DNA from: Herbidospora cretacea | GTDB lineage: Bacteria; Actinomycetota; Actinomycetes; Streptosporangiales; Streptosporangiaceae | DNA: 64,000 nucleotides | Assembly: GCF_001570605.1 (NCBI RefSeq) | Contig: NZ_BBXG01000019.1 | Location: forward strand, 1 to 64,000 | Reading direction: 5' to 3' | In this document: piece after piece, positions 8,680 to 61,166 of the stretch | Numbering within the stretch: the first letter of the stretch is position 1 | Layout of the letters: the number at the start of each line of letters is the position of its first letter | The notes under the pieces: model-generated | Told to the model about the DNA's origin: nothing | What the model saw: the letters and a program-made list of their open reading frames with translations, nothing else | Databases searched by the model: none | Position numbers and translations under genes: made by a program

Positions 8680-9303
8680 GTGACGACGGTTCACCTTTCG
8701 CCGGTGCCCGCCGGGCACGTGGTCGCCTACCGCGACGACGGCCCGCTCTCCGGCGCGATGGGCACGATGGTCTCCGGCCAGATCCCGCCGCTGCCGCCGG
8801 CCCTGGTGGGCATGGTCGTGACCGGCGTGCTGCTGGTCCTCGGCATCGCCGGCACCGACGGCCCGGCGGTCTTCGCCCCGGCGGTCGCGCTGCTGCTGGC
8901 CGGGCCCGGCTCCTCCCACCGGCACGACGGGCGGCTCGACTGGCTGGTGCCGCCGATCCTGCGCGTCACCGAATACGGCTTCGTGGCCATGGTCGGCTTC
9001 GCCCACGGGGTGCCCCCGGTGATCATCTTCCTGCTGCTCGGCGCTATCCTCTTCCACCATTACGACCTGGTCTACCGGGTCCGCCAGCACGTCTATCCGC
9101 CCGCGTGGCTCGCGGCGGCCGGGCTCGGCTGGGAGGGCCGGATGCTCGTGGTCGCCGCCGGGGCCTGGTTCGACGGCGTCGCGGCGGTGTTCGTGCTGCT
9201 GGCCGTCTACCTGTGGGGGATGTTCGGCTGGGAGAGCCTGACCTGCTGGCTGGCCGCCCCGCGTACCGGGACAGAGGCCGCCAATCTCGGCATCCAAGAT
9301 TAA
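8680..9303 (+). CDS. Membrane protein resembling DUF5941
   Basis: The 207-residue protein starts with GTG at 8680, 10 nt after the preceding stop, with a GAGG upstream. It has about five hydrophobic helices (around 45-75, 105-130, 155-200) and a LFHHYDLVYRVRQ motif. It resembles the DUF5941 region that I recall being fused to the CDP-alcohol phosphotransferase in Streptomyces; here it is a separate gene. A membrane partner or substrate-handling role for the phosphotransferase is likely but unproven. The DUF assignment is from memory of the family and not from a search. Confidence 0.65.
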   Translation: MTTVHLSPVPAGHVVAYRDDGPLSGAMGTMVSGQIPPLPPALVGMVVTGVLLVLGIAGTDGPAVFAPAVALLLAGPGSSHRHDGRLDWLVPPILRVTEYGFVAMVGFAHGVPPVIIFLLLGAILFHHYDLVYRVRQHVYPPAWLAAAGLGWEGRMLVVAAGAWFDGVAAVFVLLAVYLWGMFGWESLTCWLAAPRTGTEAANLGIQD

Positions 9304-10139: not shown

Positions 10140-11198
10140 ATGCCGATCCTGGCGAGGATGCTCCCCGCCCCCATCACGATGGAAGTACGCCGGGGCGCCA
10201 TCGCGCAGCTCGGGTCGCTGCTGTCCGACAGCCGGGTGGCGACCTCCGGCCGGGTCGCGGTGGCCGTCGGCGCGGGCCTCGGCGACCGCATCACCAAGGT
10301 CATCGCCCCCTCCCTCGGCGACGCCGAGGTCTTCCGGGTGCCCGACGGCTCGGTCGACGCGGCCGTCGCCCTCGGCGCCGACCTGCGCAAGGGCGCCTAC
10401 GAGGCGCTGGTGGGCATCGGCGGCGGCCGGACCATCGACGTCACCAAGTACGCCGCCTCGCTGGCCGGGATCCCCATGGTCGCCGTGGCGACCAACCTGG
10501 CCCACGACGGCATCTGCTCGCCGGTGGCCTCCCTCACCCACGAGGGCGGCAAGGGCTCGTTCGGCGTGCCGATGCCGCTGGCCATCATGATCGACCTCGA
10601 CTTCGTCCACGACGCCCCGCAGGCGCTGGTGCGCTCGGGGGTCGGCGACGTGATCAGCAACCTGTCGGCGATCGAGGACTGGCAGCTCGGCAACGCCGAG
10701 CGCGGTGAGCCGATCGACGGGCTGGCCTGCTCGATGGCGCGGACGGCCGCCGAGGCCATCATCGGCAGGCGCGACTCCGTCGAGTCCGACGCGTTCCTGA
10801 CCGTCTTGGCCGAGGCTTTGATTCTTTCCGGCATGTCGATGGTCATCGCCGGGTCAAGCCGGCCGACCAGCGGCGGCGATCATGAAATCATGCATGCCGT
10901 GGACCAGCTCTTCCCCGGGACCTCCAACCACGGTGAGCTGGCCGGGATCGGCGCCGCCTTCTGCTACTACCTGCGGGCGGACGAGGCGCGGTTCGGCCAG
11001 GTCGTCGAGTGCCTGCGCGGGCACGACCTGCCGCTGACCCACGGCGACATCGGCCTGACCGCCGACCAGTTCGTCGAGGCGGTCATGCTGGCCCCGTCGA
11101 CCCGCCCGGGGCGGTTCACCATCCTGGAACACCTGCGCCTGTCCGAGTCCGAGATCCGTGATCGAGTTGAGGGTTATGTCCACGCCGTCGGTCGCTGA
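10140..11198 (+). CDS. sn-Glycerol-1-phosphate dehydrogenase-like (AraM/EgsA family) oxidoreductase
   Basis: The 352-residue protein has the iron-containing-alcohol-dehydrogenase fold of the glycerol-1-phosphate dehydrogenase group. It shows GIGGGRTIDVTKYAA (92-106), a likely metal-binding set of D170, H248 (TSGGDHEIMHA) and H264 (NHGE), and a NAD-binding N-terminal half. Bacterial AraM reduces dihydroxyacetone phosphate to sn-glycerol 1-phosphate; archaeal EgsA does the same for membrane lipids. Between a nucleotidyltransferase and a CDP-alcohol phosphotransferase it probably makes the phosphorylated polyol that is then activated. The exact polyol is not determined by sequence. Confidence 0.82.
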   Translation: MPILARMLPAPITMEVRRGAIAQLGSLLSDSRVATSGRVAVAVGAGLGDRITKVIAPSLGDAEVFRVPDGSVDAAVALGADLRKGAYEALVGIGGGRTIDVTKYAASLAGIPMVAVATNLAHDGICSPVASLTHEGGKGSFGVPMPLAIMIDLDFVHDAPQALVRSGVGDVISNLSAIEDWQLGNAERGEPIDGLACSMARTAAEAIIGRRDSVESDAFLTVLAEALILSGMSMVIAGSSRPTSGGDHEIMHAVDQLFPGTSNHGELAGIGAAFCYYLRADEARFGQVVECLRGHDLPLTHGDIGLTADQFVEAVMLAPSTRPGRFTILEHLRLSESEIRDRVEGYVHAVGR

Positions 11199-52056: not shown

Positions 52057-53049
52057 GTGGACATCGACGCCTTCAGAGCCGCCCACCAGCCGACCTGGGA
52101 CCGGCTCGACGACCTGGTGAAGCGGCGGCGGAGGCTGACCGGCCCCGAGGTCGACGAACTGGTCGAGCTCTACCAGCGGGTGTCCACCCACCTATCGATC
52201 GTCCGCTCGGCCTCCCGCGACGGCGTGCTGACCGGCCGGCTGTCCGCCCTGGTCGCCCGGTCGCGGACCGCCGTCACCGGCGCCCACGCGCCCGCCTGGC
52301 GGGAGTTCCTCCGGTTCTGGACGGTCTCGTTCCCGGTGGTCTGCTACCGGTCGTGGCGCTGGTGGCTGGGCGCGGCCGTGGCCTCGGCGGTCGTCGCGGT
52401 GGCGGTCGGGATCTGGGTGGGCGCCAACCCCGACGTGCGGGCCGCGATGGGCACGCCCGAGGAGATCAGGCAGCTCGTTGAGCACGACTTCGCCGACTAC
52501 TACAGCGAGAACCCGGCCGGGTCGTTCGCCACGCACGTGTGGGTGAACAACGCGTGGGTGGCGGCCCAGTGCGTCGCCTCGTCGGTGATCGGAGGCGTGC
52601 TGATCCCGTACATCCTCTTCCAGAACGCCGCCAACGTCGGGCTGCTCGGCGGGATCATGATCGACTCGGGCCGGGGCGAGGTGTTCTTCGGCCTGATCAC
52701 CCCCCACGGCCTGCTGGAGCTCACGGCGGTGTTCCTGGCCGCCGGGGCGGGCATGCGGGTCGGCTGGTCGCTGATCGCGCCGGGCCCGCGCCCGCGCGCG
52801 CAGGTGCTCGCCGAACAGGGGCGCGCGGTGGTCGCGGTGGTGCTCGGGCTCGCCGTCGTACTGCTGATCTCGGGCCTCATCGAGGCCCTCGTCACGCCTT
52901 CGCCGCTGCCGACCTGGGCCCGCATCGCCATCGGCGCCACCGCCGAGATCCTCTTCCTGCTGTACGTCGTCCACTACGGCCGCCGGGCCGCCAGAGCCGG
53001 CGAGACGGGCGACATCGCCGACGCCCCTGATTTCGTGCCCACGGCTTAG
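52057..53049 (+). CDS. SpoIIM-like (DUF95) integral membrane protein
   Basis: The 330-residue protein opens MDIDAFRAAHQPTWDRLDDL. It has a roughly 90-residue cytoplasmic helical region and about six membrane helices, the conserved GGVLIPYILFQNAANVGLLGG and TPHGLLELTAVFLAAGAG motifs of stage II sporulation protein M-like proteins. Actinobacterial members usually sit beside the RDD/DUF58/MoxR block; their role is unknown. GTG at 52057 is 7 nt after TAGGCT, so probably leaderless. Its TAG stop lies at the very end of the left IS982 remnant. Confidence 0.85.
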   Translation: MDIDAFRAAHQPTWDRLDDLVKRRRRLTGPEVDELVELYQRVSTHLSIVRSASRDGVLTGRLSALVARSRTAVTGAHAPAWREFLRFWTVSFPVVCYRSWRWWLGAAVASAVVAVAVGIWVGANPDVRAAMGTPEEIRQLVEHDFADYYSENPAGSFATHVWVNNAWVAAQCVASSVIGGVLIPYILFQNAANVGLLGGIMIDSGRGEVFFGLITPHGLLELTAVFLAAGAGMRVGWSLIAPGPRPRAQVLAEQGRAVVAVVLGLAVVLLISGLIEALVTPSPLPTWARIAIGATAEILFLLYVVHYGRRAARAGETGDIADAPDFVPTA

Positions 53050-53545
53050 ATGATGGATTCCAAGCCCTTGGCGTGAGGTCAGTGGTCGTAAGCGGTCGGG
53101 GGTCGTTTCACCGGCTGGCCGGAATGAACCTTGTGCCAGATCCCGGCGGTGATGGCGAGGACGCGGACGATCACGCGGATGACGACGTCGGGGATTGTCC
53201 GCCCGCCGTGGCGTTCCAGGTCCAGCTGAGCTTTGATGTGGTGTATCGATTCGATGGTCTGGCGTAAGGGCTTGATCAGGGCGCTTCCGCGGGCTTGCGC
53301 AGCAGGGTCAGTCCCTGGCTTGCCAGGGCGGTCTCGAAGTCGCGGCCGAGTACTGCATGTCGGCCAGGATGGTCCGGCCGGGATGGCGGGCCACCGATTC
53401 GCGCTCGGCGGCTTTGGCACTGGTGAGGGGGAAGGCGACGGGCGCTCCACCGGGGGTGCAGAGGTGGTGGAGGCGCAGGCCCCAGAAGAAGCGGCTATGG
53501 GAGGAGCAGTAGCCGAATTCGGCCAGCCGGCCACGGCGCTGCCGT
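53050..53545 (-). mobile_element. Degenerate IS982-family copy, left
   Basis: The copy starts TGATGGATTCCAAGCCCTTG right after TAGA and is clearly homologous to the right copy at 58303. On the minus strand it keeps the transposase C-terminus (LERHGGRTIPDV, GQPVKRPPTAYDH) and a shifted piece resembling LAEFGYCSSHSRFFWG. The N-terminal half and other end are missing; 53546-53700 is more AT-rich and holds no gene that I can identify. Confidence 0.8.
53079..53545 (-). pseudogene. IS982-family transposase fragment
   Basis: The last 70 or so codons read LIKPLRQTIESIHHIKAQLD then LERHGGRTIPDV and TAYDH, the familiar IS982 C-terminus. Earlier sequence is frameshifted with an internal stop, and the catalytic region is incomplete, so it is not functional. 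Confidence 0.8.
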
Positions 53546-53714
53546 CACCCGGGAATCGGCTTCACGAACCTGCGGCTGTTTGCCCGCCCTGGATTCGGCG
53601 TGAAACCCACATATTTATCGCGGGGCCGAAAGAATTCACCATTGCTCAAATGGGGTATCTTGTGGCGTCATGTGATTAATTGGGGCTCGGGGCCGGGCAA
53701 GGGCGGGAGCGTCG

Positions 53715-53747
53715 ATGTATTCGCAGGCCACTGATCCGCTGACATGA
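53715..53747 (+). CDS. Ten-codon leader ORF overlapping the protease-NTPase gene
   Basis: ATG at 53715 encodes MYSQATDPLT. Its TGA (53745-53747) overlaps the ATG of the large gene (53744) in an ATGA pair. It is preceded by GGGCGGGAG (53701-53709), a good ribosome site 5 nt away, whereas the large gene has no Shine-Dalgarno of its own. This suggests coupled translation. No conserved peptide function is known. Confidence 0.5.
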   Translation: MYSQATDPLT

Positions 53748-56700
53748 CCTCTGGCCCCTTGGTGGACTCGTGGATCGCCGCGGTTCACCTGACGGAACAC
53801 GACCGCGAACCCGTGGGATCCGCCGTCGTCATCGACAATCGCCGCGCCCTGACCGCGGGTCACGTCGTGGTCCACCACCACAAGGTGGTCGAGGAATTGT
53901 GGCTGGCCTTTCCCAAGGCGGACACCGGCCAATATCAGCGCCGCCGCGCCCGAATAAAGTTACCCGCCGATCACCGGACCGCCGACCTCGCGTTTCTGGT
54001 CATGGACGAGGACGTCCCTCCAGGCGTGCAGCCCGCCCAGCTTCGATTACCGCGCCCCGCCGACCTGGTCGGCAGGCAGTGGTGGGCCTTCGGTTTCCCG
54101 CTGTCCGACCCCCTCGGCGACGTTACGAGCGGCGAGGTGGACGCCTCGCTCGGATACGGCTGGATCCGGCTGACCACCACGTCTCCCTATCCGTTGGCGC
54201 GCGGCTACAGCGGGAGCGGACTCTGGTCACCCGACTACGCCGCCGTGGTCGCGATCGTCGGGCAGGCGCACCACGAGGGCGGAGGCCGGGCTGTCACTCT
54301 CTACGAGGCCGACCTCTGGTTTCCCGAGGAGAAGCTGCGGTCCCTGATCGAGAAGTGGTCGGCGGAGCAGGCCGATCCGGAGGCTCTCGCCTCGTGGGGC
54401 TGGAGCCTCGACACCGACCCTGAGGGAACCCGTCACTGGCGGCCGCGGGCCCGTGGCGTCACCGTGGACAGCGAGCGCGGATACCGGTTCCGGGGCCGGA
54501 CTGCCGCGCTGGGCCGGATCGTCGACTGGCTGACCCGCGTCCAGCCCGACCGCCGTGCGCTCGTCGTCACCGGTTCACCGGGCGTCGGCAAGTCGGCTGT
54601 GCTCGGCCGGATCGTCACGACGGCCGACGCGGCGGTCCGGGCAGAACTGCCCGCCGACGACCAGAGCGTACGGGCGCCGATCGCCTCCATCGCCTGCGCG
54701 ATCCACGCCAAGGGCAAGACCGCGCTCGACGTGGCCCGAGAGATAGCGCGGGCGGCCTCGGCGGCCCTGCCGGAAAGCGTCGAGGACCTGGAGACGGCGC
54801 TGCTCGCGGTCCTGCCGGAACGCAGCCGGCGGTTCAACGTCGTCATCGACGCTCTCGACGAGGCCACGTCCCCGACCGAGACCCGGACGATCATCACCCA
54901 TGTAGTGCTCCCGATCGTGGAGACGTGCGCCGAACTCGGTGCGCAGGTGATCATCGCCACCCGTCGCAGAGACGACGGCGGCAACCTCCTCAGCGTGTTC
55001 GGCGGCGCGTCGTCCGTCGTGGACCTGGACGAGCCGCTCTACTTCGCCCGCGAGGACCTGACCGAGTACGCCATGGCCACCCTGCAGCTCATCGGTGACG
55101 AGCGGGCCGGTAACCCCTACGCGGAGGATGAGGTGGCGCGTCCGGTCGCGGAAGGGATCGCCGCACGCTCCGACCGGAACTTCCTGATCGCCGGGCTGGT
55201 GGCCCGCACCCACGGGATGCACGACCTCCAGGCGATCGACCCGGCATCGCTGTCGTTCACGGCGACGGTCGAGGAGGCGCTGCGAACCTACATCAGGCGA
55301 CTTCCGGACGTGGGCAGAATCCCGGCCTCCACGGTCCTGGCGGCGCTGGCCTTCGCCGACTCACCCGGCTTCGATCTCGACCTGTGGATCCTCGCGATCC
55401 AGACCCTTGACGGCGTGACCACCACCGCCGGGCAACTGGCGCGGTTCGCCCGATCGTCCGCCGCCAACTTCCTGGTGGAGTCGACGACAGGAGACCAGGG
55501 CGGGGTCTACCGGCTGTTTCACCAGGCCCTCAACGACGCCCTGCTCGCCGTCCGTGCCCGCGTCTCCACCCGCGCCGAGGACGAGCGCATGCTCGCCCGC
55601 GCCTTCCTCGCCCGGGCCCATCGGGTGTCTTGGGAGAAGGCCCCGCCTTACCTGCTGCGATCACTCGCGGGTCACGCGGCCCGCGGCGGCGTTCTCGAGG
55701 AATTGGTGGCCGATGAGAAGTATCCCTTGTACGCAGACCTGCTGCGGTTCAGCTCACACGCGGTCAGTGCCGCGTCCGCGGACGTGCACACGAGGCGACG
55801 GCTCATCCAGCTCACTCCGCTGGCCTTCGACGCGCCGCCCGCCGTGCGCGCCGCGCTGTTCACGGTGACCTCGGCGATGGCCGACCTCGATTTGGAGGTG
55901 CCCAGCCCGTCGGACTCGGTGCCCTATCGGGCCGTCTGGGCCTCCGCGACGCCGCGCGCCGACCAGGCGATCTTGTACGGCCACACCGGCAGGGTCACCG
56001 GTGTCTGTTCCTTCGTCCTGAACGGTCGAGTCCTGCTTGCCACCACCAGCGCCGACCAGACGGTCAGGATCTGGGACCCGGCCACCGGGCAGGAGGAGAA
56101 CGTCCTTACCGGCCACACAGCGAGAGTGAACGGCATCTGCGCGTTCGGCCGAGGCGATCACGTCAGACTGGCCACGACCGGTGAGGATCGCACCGTGCGC
56201 GTGTGGGACCCGGCCACGGGTCAGGCTCTGCACACCCTGATGGGACACACCGAGAGGGTGAGTGGCATCTGCGCGCACCCGCGCGCTTCGTCCAGCTATC
56301 TGGCCACGGCCAGCGATCTGCGAGTCGTGAAGACCGATCTGCTGGCCACGACGAGCGATGACGGGACCATCCGGGGGTGGGATCCCGATACAGGCGAGGC
56401 CATGTACGTCCTGCACGGTCACAAGGGACCTGTCACCGCCGTCTGCGCGTTCGAGGAGAACCGGCGGGTGATGCTGGCGACCACCGGCCGTGACGGCACA
56501 GTCCGGATCTGGGACACGGTCACGGGACGGCGTGTCCGCCTGCTGGCCGACCATGCGTTCCGCCCCGCCGCCCTCTGCGCCTTCAACCTCAAAGGTCGTC
56601 TCACCGTCGCCGTGGCCGACGTTGGCGGGATTCGCATCAGCGATTCCACGTCGAACAGGGCGAAATATGTCCTCAAGGGACACCGCAGCGGTGTCACTCA

Positions 56701-57925
56701 CGTCTCCGTGTTCTTCTCGGGAGATCGGTTCCTGCTGATCAGCGCAGGAGAGGACCAGACCCTACGCGTGTGGAATCCGCTCACCAGGGAAACCCAGCGA
56801 ACATTGACGGGACACACCGGCGAGGTCACCGGCGCCTGCGCGTTCTCCCTCGGGAACCGGCTGCTGCTCGCCACCACCAGCGCCGACCAGACGATCAGGA
56901 TCTGGGACCCGGCCGTGGGCCGGTCTCCGAAGGGAGTCGTGCGGCACCAGGGCCGCGTGAACGCGGTGCGCGGGCTCGACTTCCGCAAGCGCACCTACAT
57001 CCTGACGACCAGCGACGATGGGACAGTACGCGCCTGGGAGAGCGTCACCGGAGGTCACTTCCAGACGATGAAAGGCCATCTCGGCCGGGTGAACGCGGTC
57101 TGCAGCGTGACCGTGCGCGGCGAGATCCGCGTCGCGACGACCGGGGACGACGGGCTGATCAGGCTTTGGGACCCGAAGACGGGATACCTCCACACGGGTT
57201 TCATCGGGCACACGGGGACCGTCTCGACGCTCTGCACCGTCGACATCGATGGCAAGGTCATGCTTGCCTCCGGTGGTGACGACCGGGCGATCCGGATCTG
57301 GGACCCCTCGACCGGGCGGGTCCACCGTAAGCTCTATCGTCGGCCGAACGCCTTCTTCTCCGCCATGGCCCGATTCGTGTTCAGAAGGCCTGTCCTGGAC
57401 GCGTACCTTCACGGGATCCGGGCCATCTGCGAGGTCCGTCACGTGGACGGGGCCTGGCTCGCCACCACAGCCGACGAGGGCACGATCCTGCTCTGGGACC
57501 TGCGGACGAGCCGATACCGGGAGATCCCCATCGACAAGGTCGGCAACGCCGTCGACATGTGTGCGTTCACCCTGGACGAGGACCCGTACCTCGCCGTCGC
57601 CAGCACCAGACCGGATGTCGCCATCGTCGATCTGCGGACCGGGCGCCCACGGGGCGCGCTGACCGGGCACTCCGACGACGTGGTCGGGGTCTGCGCCTTC
57701 GACTTCGGTGGCCGGGTCCTGCTGGCCACCGCGAGCCGCGACCGTACGGCCCGGATCTGGAACGCCGTGACCGGTACGTGTGAGATGACGATTCCCGTGC
57801 ACGACCCCGCGACCAGTTGCGCGTGGATCGACGGGGCGCTGGCCGTGGGGCTGGACACGGGCGTGCTCGTGATCCGACTCAATCCCGGACTGGCCGGGGG
57901 CACTAACTGGGAGGGCGGATCATGA
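53744..57925 (+). CDS. Trypsin-like protease / STAND NTPase / WD40 multidomain protein
   Basis: The 1393-residue protein has three parts. Residues 1-200: trypsin-like protease with H40 (LTAGHVV), D81 (TADLAFLV) and S156 (GYSGSGLW) as a complete-looking triad. Residues about 250-560: STAND-type P-loop NTPase with Walker A GSPGVGKS (277-284) and Walker B VVIDALDE. Residues about 745-1390: fourteen WD40 blades, two seven-bladed propellers. There is no signal peptide, so it acts in the cytosol. The layout matches NLR-like conflict proteins: sensor propellers, switch NTPase, protease effector. A Trypco1-like gene overlaps its stop. Blades 1 and 7 share a 45-nt near-identical stretch. Flanked by IS982 remnants. 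Confidence 0.88.
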   Translation: MTSGPLVDSWIAAVHLTEHDREPVGSAVVIDNRRALTAGHVVVHHHKVVEELWLAFPKADTGQYQRRRARIKLPADHRTADLAFLVMDEDVPPGVQPAQLRLPRPADLVGRQWWAFGFPLSDPLGDVTSGEVDASLGYGWIRLTTTSPYPLARGYSGSGLWSPDYAAVVAIVGQAHHEGGGRAVTLYEADLWFPEEKLRSLIEKWSAEQADPEALASWGWSLDTDPEGTRHWRPRARGVTVDSERGYRFRGRTAALGRIVDWLTRVQPDRRALVVTGSPGVGKSAVLGRIVTTADAAVRAELPADDQSVRAPIASIACAIHAKGKTALDVAREIARAASAALPESVEDLETALLAVLPERSRRFNVVIDALDEATSPTETRTIITHVVLPIVETCAELGAQVIIATRRRDDGGNLLSVFGGASSVVDLDEPLYFAREDLTEYAMATLQLIGDERAGNPYAEDEVARPVAEGIAARSDRNFLIAGLVARTHGMHDLQAIDPASLSFTATVEEALRTYIRRLPDVGRIPASTVLAALAFADSPGFDLDLWILAIQTLDGVTTTAGQLARFARSSAANFLVESTTGDQGGVYRLFHQALNDALLAVRARVSTRAEDERMLARAFLARAHRVSWEKAPPYLLRSLAGHAARGGVLEELVADEKYPLYADLLRFSSHAVSAASADVHTRRRLIQLTPLAFDAPPAVRAALFTVTSAMADLDLEVPSPSDSVPYRAVWASATPRADQAILYGHTGRVTGVCSFVLNGRVLLATTSADQTVRIWDPATGQEENVLTGHTARVNGICAFGRGDHVRLATTGEDRTVRVWDPATGQALHTLMGHTERVSGICAHPRASSSYLATASDLRVVKTDLLATTSDDGTIRGWDPDTGEAMYVLHGHKGPVTAVCAFEENRRVMLATTGRDGTVRIWDTVTGRRVRLLADHAFRPAALCAFNLKGRLTVAVADVGGIRISDSTSNRAKYVLKGHRSGVTHVSVFFSGDRFLLISAGEDQTLRVWNPLTRETQRTLTGHTGEVTGACAFSLGNRLLLATTSADQTIRIWDPAVGRSPKGVVRHQGRVNAVRGLDFRKRTYILTTSDDGTVRAWESVTGGHFQTMKGHLGRVNAVCSVTVRGEIRVATTGDDGLIRLWDPKTGYLHTGFIGHTGTVSTLCTVDIDGKVMLASGGDDRAIRIWDPSTGRVHRKLYRRPNAFFSAMARFVFRRPVLDAYLHGIRAICEVRHVDGAWLATTADEGTILLWDLRTSRYREIPIDKVGNAVDMCAFTLDEDPYLAVASTRPDVAIVDLRTGRPRGALTGHSDDVVGVCAFDFGGRVLLATASRDRTARIWNAVTGTCEMTIPVHDPATSCAWIDGALAVGLDTGVLVIRLNPGLAGGTNWEGGS

Positions 57926-58302
57926 CCCATGTCGTCAGGTACGAGATCGACGAGAACACGACGGTCGGGTTCGAGGTCGCCCCGATCCCCGGCTATCACG
58001 CCGCGGGGGCGGGGGAGATCGCCGGTCCCATCCGCCAAGCCGTGGAACCGGCGATCCGGGCCGCGCGCGCGGTCCTCGACAAGGCCAAGGAAGCGCGGCC
58101 GGACGAGATCTCGCTGAAGTTCGGCATCAAGGTCAGTGGCACGACGAACTGGCTGGTCGCCAAGGCCGCGACGGAGGGGAACTTCGAGATCACGATGGTC
58201 TGGAAGGCACGGCCCGACGGCGCGGGCACGGCTGGCCCGCCCGGCGAGGAGGGTGACGACGCCTCAGCCAACGAAGACGACGAGGGCGACGACCCGGCCT
58301 AG
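57922..58302 (+). CDS. Small protein resembling trypsin-co-occurring domain 1 (Trypco1, CU044_2847 family)
   Basis: The 126-residue protein starts MTHVVRYEIDENTTVGFEVA. It has an IRQAVEPAIRAARAVLDKAKEARPDEISLKFGIKVSG helix-strand core and a terminal acidic tail (GDDASANEDDEGDDPA). The core resembles the Trypco1 family, which sits next to trypsin-like proteases in actinobacterial conflict systems. The ATG overlaps the large gene's stop by 4 bp (ATGA). The TAG stop lies at the end of the right IS982 copy. A regulator, adaptor or substrate role for the protease is the reasonable guess. Confidence 0.75.
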   Translation: MTHVVRYEIDENTTVGFEVAPIPGYHAAGAGEIAGPIRQAVEPAIRAARAVLDKAKEARPDEISLKFGIKVSGTTNWLVAKAATEGNFEITMVWKARPDGAGTAGPPGEEGDDASANEDDEGDDPA

Positions 58303-58875
58303 ATGATTGATTCCCAGCCGTTGGCGTGATGTTAGCGGTCGTAGGCGAGCAGGGACCGTTCACTGGCTGGCCGGCGTGGTCGTTGTGCCCGATCACGGCG
58401 GTGAGGGCGAGGAGGCGGACGATCACCCGGACGGCGACGCCGGGGATGGTCCGCCCGCCGTGACGCTCCATGTCCAGCTGAACTTTGAGGTCTGGCTGAT
58501 CGATTCGACGGTCCGACGTAAGGGCTTGATCAGCGCTGTTCCGGTTCGTGGGGGTTCGCCTTCGCCGGTGAGGGCGAAGACGACCGGACACTCCGCCGGG
58601 GGCGCAGGGCAGGTGGAGGCGTAGCCCTCAGAAGAAGCGGCTGTGGGAGGAGCAGTAACCGTATTCGGCCCGGCCGGTCAGGGCGCTGTGGGTGGCGGTC
58701 TGGCGGGAGCGTCCGCATTCGACAGGGTGGAGTCGGCCCACCCATATGTCGTCGTTCCACAGGGTGGTGTCGTAGGCCAGGACGCAGATCATGTGCAGGA
58801 CCAGTGGTGAGGCACCACAGGCGCCCTCGCCCACTACGCCAGCGATTCCCGAGCTAAGCCCTTGCAATCAATCAT
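58303..58875 (-). mobile_element. Degenerate IS982-family copy, right, with both ends
   Basis: The left end reads ATGATTGATTCCCAGCC and the right end, inverted, ATGATTGATTGCAAGGG, both flanked by CTAG. The copy is about 0.57 kb, short for an IS982 (about 1 kb), and keeps VECGRSRQ and AEYGYCSSHSRFF transposase pieces plus the LERHGGRTIPGV tail region in broken frames. It has the same orientation as the left copy. Confidence 0.82.
58330..58860 (-). pseudogene. IS982-family transposase remnant
   Basis: Reading the minus strand, LHPVECGRSRQTATHSALTG and AEYGYCSSHSRFF precede a frameshift and a deleted middle. The C-terminal piece MERHGGRTIPGVAVRVIVRL then appears in another frame. Not functional. 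Confidence 0.78.
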
Positions 58876-60203
58876 CTAGAGCCGACCGGCCGCCTTCAGG
58901 TTCAGGTAGGCGTCGGCCAGCGCCGGGGCCAGGTCGTCCGGCAGGGCGTCGACGACCTCGACGCCGTGACGGCGCAGCCGCGCGGTCACCTGGCGGCGCT
59001 CCACGCCCTGGCGTTCGGCCGCCGCCGCGTCGAAGACCTCCTCGGGGCCGTCGCGCCCGGCGGCCAGCGCGGCCACCCGGGGGTCGGCCACCGCCGCCAG
59101 CAGCACCAGATGCCTCGACGACAGCTGCGGCAGCACCGGGATCAGGCCCTCGTCCAGCGCGGTCGCGTTGAGGTCGGTCAGCACGACCACCAGGCTGCGC
59201 CGCCGGAGCCGGGACAGCACGGCGGCCACCATCCCGTGGGCGTCGGCCTCCACGAGCTCGGGCTGGAGCGGGGCCATCGCGGTGACCAGGGCGGGCAGCA
59301 GGTCGCCCCGGCCGCCGCCGCTGACCTGGGCCCGGACCGCCCGGTCGTAGGCGAGGAAGTCGACCCGGTCGCCCGCTCGCGCGCACAGGGCGGCCAGCAG
59401 CAGGGCGGCGTCCATGCCCCAGTCGAGCCGGGGCCAGCCGCTCGGGTCGCCGGAGGCGGGGTCGACGCCGACCCGCCCGGCCGAGGTGCGGCCGGTGTCG
59501 AGGACGATCAGCACCCGCCGGTCGCGCTCGGGCCGCCAGGTCCGCACGACGACGTCGGCCCGGCGCGCGGTGGCCCGCCAGTCGATCGACCGCACGTCGT
59601 CGCCGACGACGTACTCGCGCAGCGAGTCGAACTCGGTGCCCTGGCCGCGGATCTGGACGGGGTTGAGCCCGTCGATGGCCCGCAGCCGCGCCAGCTTGGC
59701 CGGGAGGTGACGCCGCGACAGGAACGGCGGCAGCACCCGAACCCGCCCCTCGACCCGGTGGGAGCCCTGCCGGGCGGCCACCCCGAGGGGCCCCAGCGCC
59801 CGGACGGTCACCCCGGCGGCCGTGAAGTCGCCCCTGCGGAGCGGCCGCAGCGTCGTGGCCACCCGGCGTCGTTCACCGGGCGGGATGTCCACCTCGTGCT
59901 CCCTGGGGGCCGGACGGGTGCTCGGCGGCCAGGCGTCCCGCAGCAGGCCACGCACCCGCCGCCCGCCCGGATTGGCCACCAGCAGGGTGACCTCGGCGGC
60001 CTCCCCGAGGCGTACCCGAAGATCGTCGGACCGCTCGAACCGCAGCACCCGCACGCTCCCCGCCAGCGCCAGGTCGACCGCGATCACCAGCACGATCACC
60101 GCGACGACCAGCCAGAACGCGACCGCGGCGAGGTCGGCGGGCGCCGCGAGCACCAGCAGCGCCCCGGCCACCGCGAGCAGCGCGGCCCGCCCGGTCAGCG
60201 CCA

Positions 60204-60204
<1 letters not shown>
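58876..60204 (-). CDS. DUF58 family protein
   Basis: The 442-residue protein has two N-terminal membrane helices (LLAVAGALLVLAAPADLAAV and next) and a beta-rich linker. The DUF58/von Willebrand-like core follows (GQGTEFDSLREYVVGDDVRSIDW, RADVVVRTWRPERDRRVLIVLD). DUF58 proteins are conserved partners of MoxR ATPases. The ATG overlaps the MoxR stop (TGATG). Its TAG stop lies inside the CTAG bordering the right IS982 remnant, and the C-terminus (AYLNLKAAGRL) looks intact. Confidence 0.9.

Positions 60205-61162
<958 letters not shown>

Positions 61163-61166
<4 letters not shown>

Follow-up and report, generated by a model that had tools for sequence, protein, structure and literature searches.

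Domain composition of the two-gene module

We analysed a 64,000-nucleotide stretch of the Herbidospora cretacea genome (assembly GCF_001570605.1, contig NZ_BBXG01000019.1, positions 1 to 64,000; hereafter the window), in which two genes on the plus strand form a candidate NLR-like module. The first encodes a 1393-residue protease-STAND-WD40 protein (53744..57925), recognised from its open reading frame (ORF), profile matches and a structure model. The second (57922..58302) overlaps it by 4 bp in an ATGA and encodes a 126-residue partner. It had been proposed from the sequence alone that this small gene encodes Trypco1, a reading that the lack of a family match could have overturned. The partner matches the Trypco1 family PF19493 with 64.3 bits against a curated cut-off of 24.6 (E 1.7e-17), it also matches NF041216, and its predicted fold is beta2-alpha-beta2.

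The N-terminal domain of the large protein (residues 1-205, 53744..54358) has both the fold and the H-D-S triad (H40, D81, S156) of trypsin-like (PA clan) peptidases, and on these grounds it is predicted to be a trypsin-fold protease. A fold search with the protease-STAND model returned a list filled by trypsins matching residues 1-200. The model of residues 1-740 reached a predicted local distance difference test score (pLDDT) of 84.5 and a predicted template modelling score (pTM) of 0.86, with residues 216-247 predicted poorly. Beyond the protease, it predicts a strand and helix order resembling a P-loop fold and then mainly helices, with the WD40 region following. In this NTPase part (residues 216-740, 54389..55963), the Walker A motif (residues 277-284) and the Walker B motif (about 367-374) are near-invariant across aligned relatives, and H593 lies further on. 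A Pfam scan placed AAA_16 and NPHP3_N above cut-off here, whereas all STAND-specific models fell below theirs (nSTAND1, 24.1 of 27.1 bits; NACHT, 16.6 of 26.7; NB-ARC, 10.7 of 23.5); we therefore use the label STAND-type rather than the name of a STAND family. The protein shows the general STAND layout, in which a single chain carries a Walker A/B P-loop NTPase, then helical parts and finally repeats at the C-terminus. Its WD40 region (residues 746-1393, 55979..57922) has about 14 blades, and Apaf-1 chains were among its best PDB sequence matches.

The preliminary description had joined a trypsin triad, a STAND P-loop NTPase and fourteen WD40 blades in one chain and compared their order to the effector, switch and sensor of an NLR. 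Profiles and the model bear out the trypsin and WD40 assignments, and the domains and fold agree with the NLR-like layout. The NTPase assignment stands on its Walker motifs, the AAA_16 and NPHP3_N matches and the layout, and falls short in that no STAND-specific model exceeded its cut-off. Pfam scans of both module proteins gave no match to a CARD or a lytic effector domain; bacterial CARDs often escape sequence-based detection. A sigma-70-type promoter was not matched in 52900-59000, and no Rfam family reached its gathering score in the window.

The WD40 region is the fastest-diverging part of the protein. Relative to the nearest relative (L255), identity is 73% in the protease, 77% in the STAND part and 47% in WD40; averaged across 27 relatives, the values are 45%, 54% and 34%, respectively, with little or no WD40 aligned in three of them. 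This is the pattern expected of a recognition surface under pressure, and relaxed constraint would look alike.

Trypco1 and the catalytic triad among relatives

Comparative genomics shows Trypco1 to be the dedicated partner of the catalytically intact, predicted active protease within the clade of the window protein. The triad was read by alignment and Trypco1 was detected by a separate model in 48 assessable members, the window included (42 from a first count and six further Streptomyces members). Trypco1 adjoins all 44 members with an intact H-D-S triad and none of the four with a broken one (exact p 5e-6, counting sequences and not evolutionary events). In the first set, 38 of 42 members are H-D-S. 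In every one of these, no more than 131 bp separate Trypco1 from the protease frame; the two genes share a strand in 37 and lie on opposite strands in one (L291). All six Streptomyces members have H-D-S, and their Trypco1 genes lie upstream. Left out of the set were the duplicate proteins L257, L283 and L286 (equal to L143, L160 and L152, respectively) and L316 (equal to L146). Also left out were L155, whose contig ends 22 bp upstream (intact triad, no Trypco1 in that stretch), and L294, which is 31% identical and lies outside the clade (intact triad with Trypco1).

The broken triads read S-D-V in Paractinoplanes pyxinae, Q-D-A and P-D-A in two Asanoa species, and R-E-R in genome G689. No Trypco1 lies beside these four genes in 4.2-8 kb of upstream sequence, and a lax search of the P. 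pyxinae and two Asanoa loci found none. In a tree of 40 rows, they fall into three lineages, and well-supported branches force three changes: P. pyxinae groups with the intact P. ovalisporus, seven intact members form the sister group of the Asanoa pair, and four that of G689. The four broken-triad members (L156, L163, L164 and L289) keep frames open over 1299-1590 residues and are candidate pseudoprotease NLR-like proteins.

Some active members were first found via Trypco1 or an active-trypsin model, and an order-wide search using neither recovered them. Among the matches listed by a pattern scan blind to catalytic residues and Trypco1, the partner accompanied 19 of 19 intact and 0 of 3 broken proteins. 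The broken-triad genomes hold six other Trypco1 genes belonging to other subfamilies, five of them beside another trypsin. These six scored 39-48 bits on the clade Trypco1 model, on which other Trypco1 proteins reached at most 64; the clade partners scored 141-150, having been among the rows of that model.

Gene order varies among the 44 intact members. Trypco1 precedes the protease gene in 41 and follows it in the window and in L290; in L291 it follows in inverted orientation. Each downstream-order member nests in the tree among relatives with upstream Trypco1. In L291, Trypco1 (8912-9292) is convergent to the protease gene, on the opposite strand and still adjacent. Over 35 members, Trypco1 distances correlate with protease distances beyond the STAND part (partial r 0.31; none of 2000 permutations reached this value), and mean pairwise identity is 57% for Trypco1 versus 45% for the protease.

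A second contrast comes from STAND relatives with other N-termini (L165-L222, mostly actinomycetes). These share a homologous STAND part at 25-45% identity (mostly 27-36%) over shorter stretches, and a crude motif count finds WD40-like repeats in many. Unlike the window protein, most carry a caspase-like N-terminus in place of trypsin. Among the matches listed, the caspase H and C were present in 48 of 53 N-termini and a Peptidase_C14 match in 22 of the 53, while Trypco1 stood beside none of 54 trypsin-less relatives, with flanks of up to 8 kb (less at contig ends). The 54 exclude L220 (no ORF match) and L167, L169 and L170 (which have trypsin), and the 53 also exclude L197. One STAND chassis thus accepts either protease, and Trypco1 follows trypsin only. 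Because Trypco1 is kept with an intact triad, gone with a broken one and absent beside non-trypsin STAND proteins, it probably acts on or through the catalysis of the active protease.

Several observations from outside the clade set limits to this dependence. We took 60 loci from the trypsin model (at least 85 bits) that had not previously been fetched for Trypco1, an omission that biases the sample toward absence. Trypco1 was adjacent on the same strand in 32, only farther away or on the other strand in 11, and absent in 17. The triad was H-D-S in 59 of the 60 trypsins, and 16 of these 59 had no Trypco1 detected nearby; the sole broken triad (L243, H-D-G) had none either. Trypco1 was likewise not detected at three intact-triad trypsin-STAND loci outside the clade (L137, L170 and L249), and was present at three others (L141, L167 and L294). 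The link between triad and Trypco1 is accordingly loose outside the clade. The idea of Trypco2 as a stand-in for Trypco1 found no support, as 80 small same-strand ORFs beside the 17 trypsin loci without Trypco1 matched neither Trypco1 nor Trypco2.

From the Trypco1 side, a same-strand trypsin ORF lay no more than 200 bp away in 40 of 60 loci fetched by Trypco1 matches. H40, D81 and S156 were invariant in 45 trypsins selected for lying at or near Trypco1. Thirteen loci had no trypsin ORF within 2 kb of Trypco1 (L045, L055, L056, L058, L059, L062, L071, L074, L077, L082-L084 and L100); seven of these have a trypsin in the same direction at a distance of 4.4-7.4 kb.

Insertion and sporadic distribution

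The module occupies a 5.8-kb insertion (53050..58875) at a CTAG that includes the SpoIIM stop codon. The insert is missing from six of six congeners (L034-L039), in which both flanks align at 90-94% identity. Five of the six have the exact empty site, where the SpoIIM stop directly precedes the tail of the following gene and CTAG marks the join; the sixth (L038, genome G003) has about 90 bp of other sequence there. G003 also carries several relatives of the flanking insertion sequence (IS). The preliminary placement of the module as an insert in an otherwise core region is confirmed by this empty site and by the IS flanks.

Two IS remnants of the DDE-transposase type bound the insert. The left one (53050..53541) is truncated, and 82-84% identical to the right one in the same orientation. 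The right one (58303..58875) has the inverted ends ATGATTGATT...AATCAATCAT and CTAG on both sides. Only the protease and Trypco1 genes were recognised between them. Besides one 24-bp match, they are the sole copies found in the source genome. IS relatives occur in 20 of 150 genomes of the order, source included, and two related copies examined in other genomes encode a 304-residue DDE_Tnp_1 transposase. The insert ends are TTAG on the left and CTAG on the right, consistent with a short target duplication in which one position has changed. Either a composite-transposon move or IS insertion followed by recombination would produce this picture. GC content at third codon positions is 86% in the protease gene versus 96% in SpoIIM. 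Both remnants start just after a YTAG (53046-53049 and 58299-58302) containing a stop codon, that of SpoIIM and of Trypco1, respectively, a pattern suggestive of an element that inserts at YTAG, a motif that may frequently coincide with stop codons in high-GC genomes. A phage origin was not indicated, as Trypco1 had no match in 50,697 phage records (tblastn, E 0.01).

Homologues of the protease-STAND protein are sporadic. None was found in the six congeners (E 0.001), four of which have Trypco1 elsewhere in the genome. Full-length homologues occur in 3 of 394 genomes of the class and 20 of 345 of the order, the source included in both and two of the 20 lying in two pieces, and in 9 of 392 genomes of a Streptomyces-type genus. 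One is on a 233-kb linear plasmid of Streptomyces coeruleorubidus, directly downstream of a gene annotated as CU044_2847 family. A motif-pattern scan of named genomes returned at least 80 loci, at least 23 of them with the protease-STAND-WD40 architecture (L143-L164 and L169). Trypco1 in general is frequent in the order (110 of 200 genomes). A housekeeping role for homologues lacking the partner, raised beforehand as a possible objection, finds no footing in this distribution, and the partner-less clade members are exactly the four of 48 with broken triads. At L134 (about 10600-11000, on the same contig as L169, Streptomyces aureus), a homologue frame breaks inside near-identical tandem WD40 blades, either by recombination between blades or by assembly error.

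Candidate roles of Trypco1 and relation to known systems

The module is probably an NLR-like conflict system. The WD40 propellers would sense a trigger, perhaps a phage protein or some other non-self or stress protein inside the cell, and the STAND NTPase would serve as an off/on switch that, as in its family, oligomerises upon activation. Oligomerisation would cluster and activate the N-terminal protease, which would cleave cell proteins and so stop an infected cell, while Trypco1 would act as an inhibitor or gate that silences the protease until the switch fires. Taken whole, as a mobile NLR/Apaf-1-like conflict module with Trypco1 as its dedicated inhibitor or gate, this proposal is evenly balanced between right and wrong. 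We favour an inhibitor or gate over a substrate or maturation factor because Trypco1 is small, better conserved than the protease, usually encoded first and not seen to be missing beside an intact clade protease; this preference is tentative. More tentatively still, Trypco1 may be a control subunit wholly dependent on a live active site and dropped three times, leaving a pseudoprotease NLR-like class that keeps switch and sensor.

The closest competitor casts Trypco1 as a substrate or executor, cut by the activated protease into a fragment that harms the cell. Its precedent is Avs1b, which according to the relevant passages of PMC12799240 activates a gated nuclease, Avs1a, by cleavage; there the protease forms part of a defence protein, and the partner that it cuts is encoded by a separate, typically upstream gene. 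A substrate role predicts Trypco1 loss upon protease death equally well and fits almost as well as an inhibitor or gate. However, Trypco1 is small (about 100-130 residues) with no recognised effector fold, its conservation exceeds that of the protease in the 35 members compared, and its C-terminal tail differs in both length and sequence among the 11 members examined, so that we regard a substrate role as unlikely. Less probable again is that Trypco1 is a factor assisting the protease domain in folding, maturation or recruitment. Such a factor would be lost with a dead protease if the active form alone needs it, and passages of PMC10907252 term Trypco1 an adapter domain. A pure adapter of the STAND oligomer, however, should persist in the broken-triad proteins with their long open frames, and should also serve the caspase-type relatives, where Trypco1 was not among the matches listed.

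STAND proteins also serve as regulators, and a signal-transduction or developmental function in place of defence would be compatible with any Trypco1 role. The general frequency of Trypco1 in the order favours it; the sporadic presence, mobile setting, plasmid copy and fast-diverging sensor speak against it, and we consider it improbable. A MoxR-vWA type system formed by the module together with the adjacent core genes for MoxR and DUF4350 is very improbable and was rejected: the MoxR ORF (60204-61166) exceeds the bpMoxR cut-off of 27 with 39.5 bits, but it scores 216.5 bits as an ordinary AAA_3, and the sequence from 52000 to about 60380 around the insert is present without it in 6 of 6 congeners.

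Parts of this picture have been proposed before. Kaur et al. (2020, PMC7159879), in their passages on VMAP ternary systems, introduced the names Trypco1 and Trypco2 for neighbours of VMAP trypsins, proposed the trypsin-Trypco1 pairing and NLR-like conflict roles, described the systems as enriched in multicellular bacteria, and reported that almost every trypsin found at the vWA effector position is inactive. The role of Trypco1 is given as predicted there and as adapter in PMC10907252, assigned in those passages without test. The window shares with the VMAP systems the trypsin-like protease, the neighbouring Trypco1 and the predicted conflict role. It differs in that one chain joins the protease to WD40 propellers and to a STAND-type NTPase whose Walker motifs are intact; no MoxR, vWA or VMAP was recognised in the insert, the adjacent MoxR being core. 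Catalysis-linked loss of Trypco1 is absent from those VMAP passages, and the open-access literature searched, as far as its accessible text goes, yielded nothing linking Trypco1 to an intact active site. Trypsin is listed in PMC8195603 among effectors of STAND proteins with other sensors, and "Trypco" does not occur in its main text.

AVAST type 1 likewise places a trypsin-like protease at the N-terminus of a STAND protein (Avs1b; PMC12799240, in part). In contrast, the window has a WD40 sensor and Trypco1, and no metallo-beta-lactamase-fold nuclease gene was recognised in the insert. We infer an anti-phage role with caution, since the defence-library match was weak: Avs1b models matched the protease part only (18.1 and 16.2 bits, the latter against a cut-off of 1500). 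The CARD-NLR system LypABC, in the sections of PMC13236601 that describe it, also combines trypsin-like peptidases with an NLR-like ATPase and requires peptidase activity for lysis, but uses separate genes, a CARD and TPR-like repeats where the window has a single chain with WD40.

The Apaf-1 apoptosome resembles the module in that a STAND switch and a WD40 sensor feed a protease; in the window, the protease is in the same chain and has a trypsin fold. We know of no counterpart of Trypco1 in the Apaf-1 apoptosome.

Natural broken-triad proteins without Trypco1 point to a catalysis-dependent role and provide an experimental contrast. The exchange of caspase and trypsin on one STAND chassis, with Trypco1 following trypsin only, would mirror apoptosome logic in bacteria and yields a prediction of which proteases require a dedicated partner.
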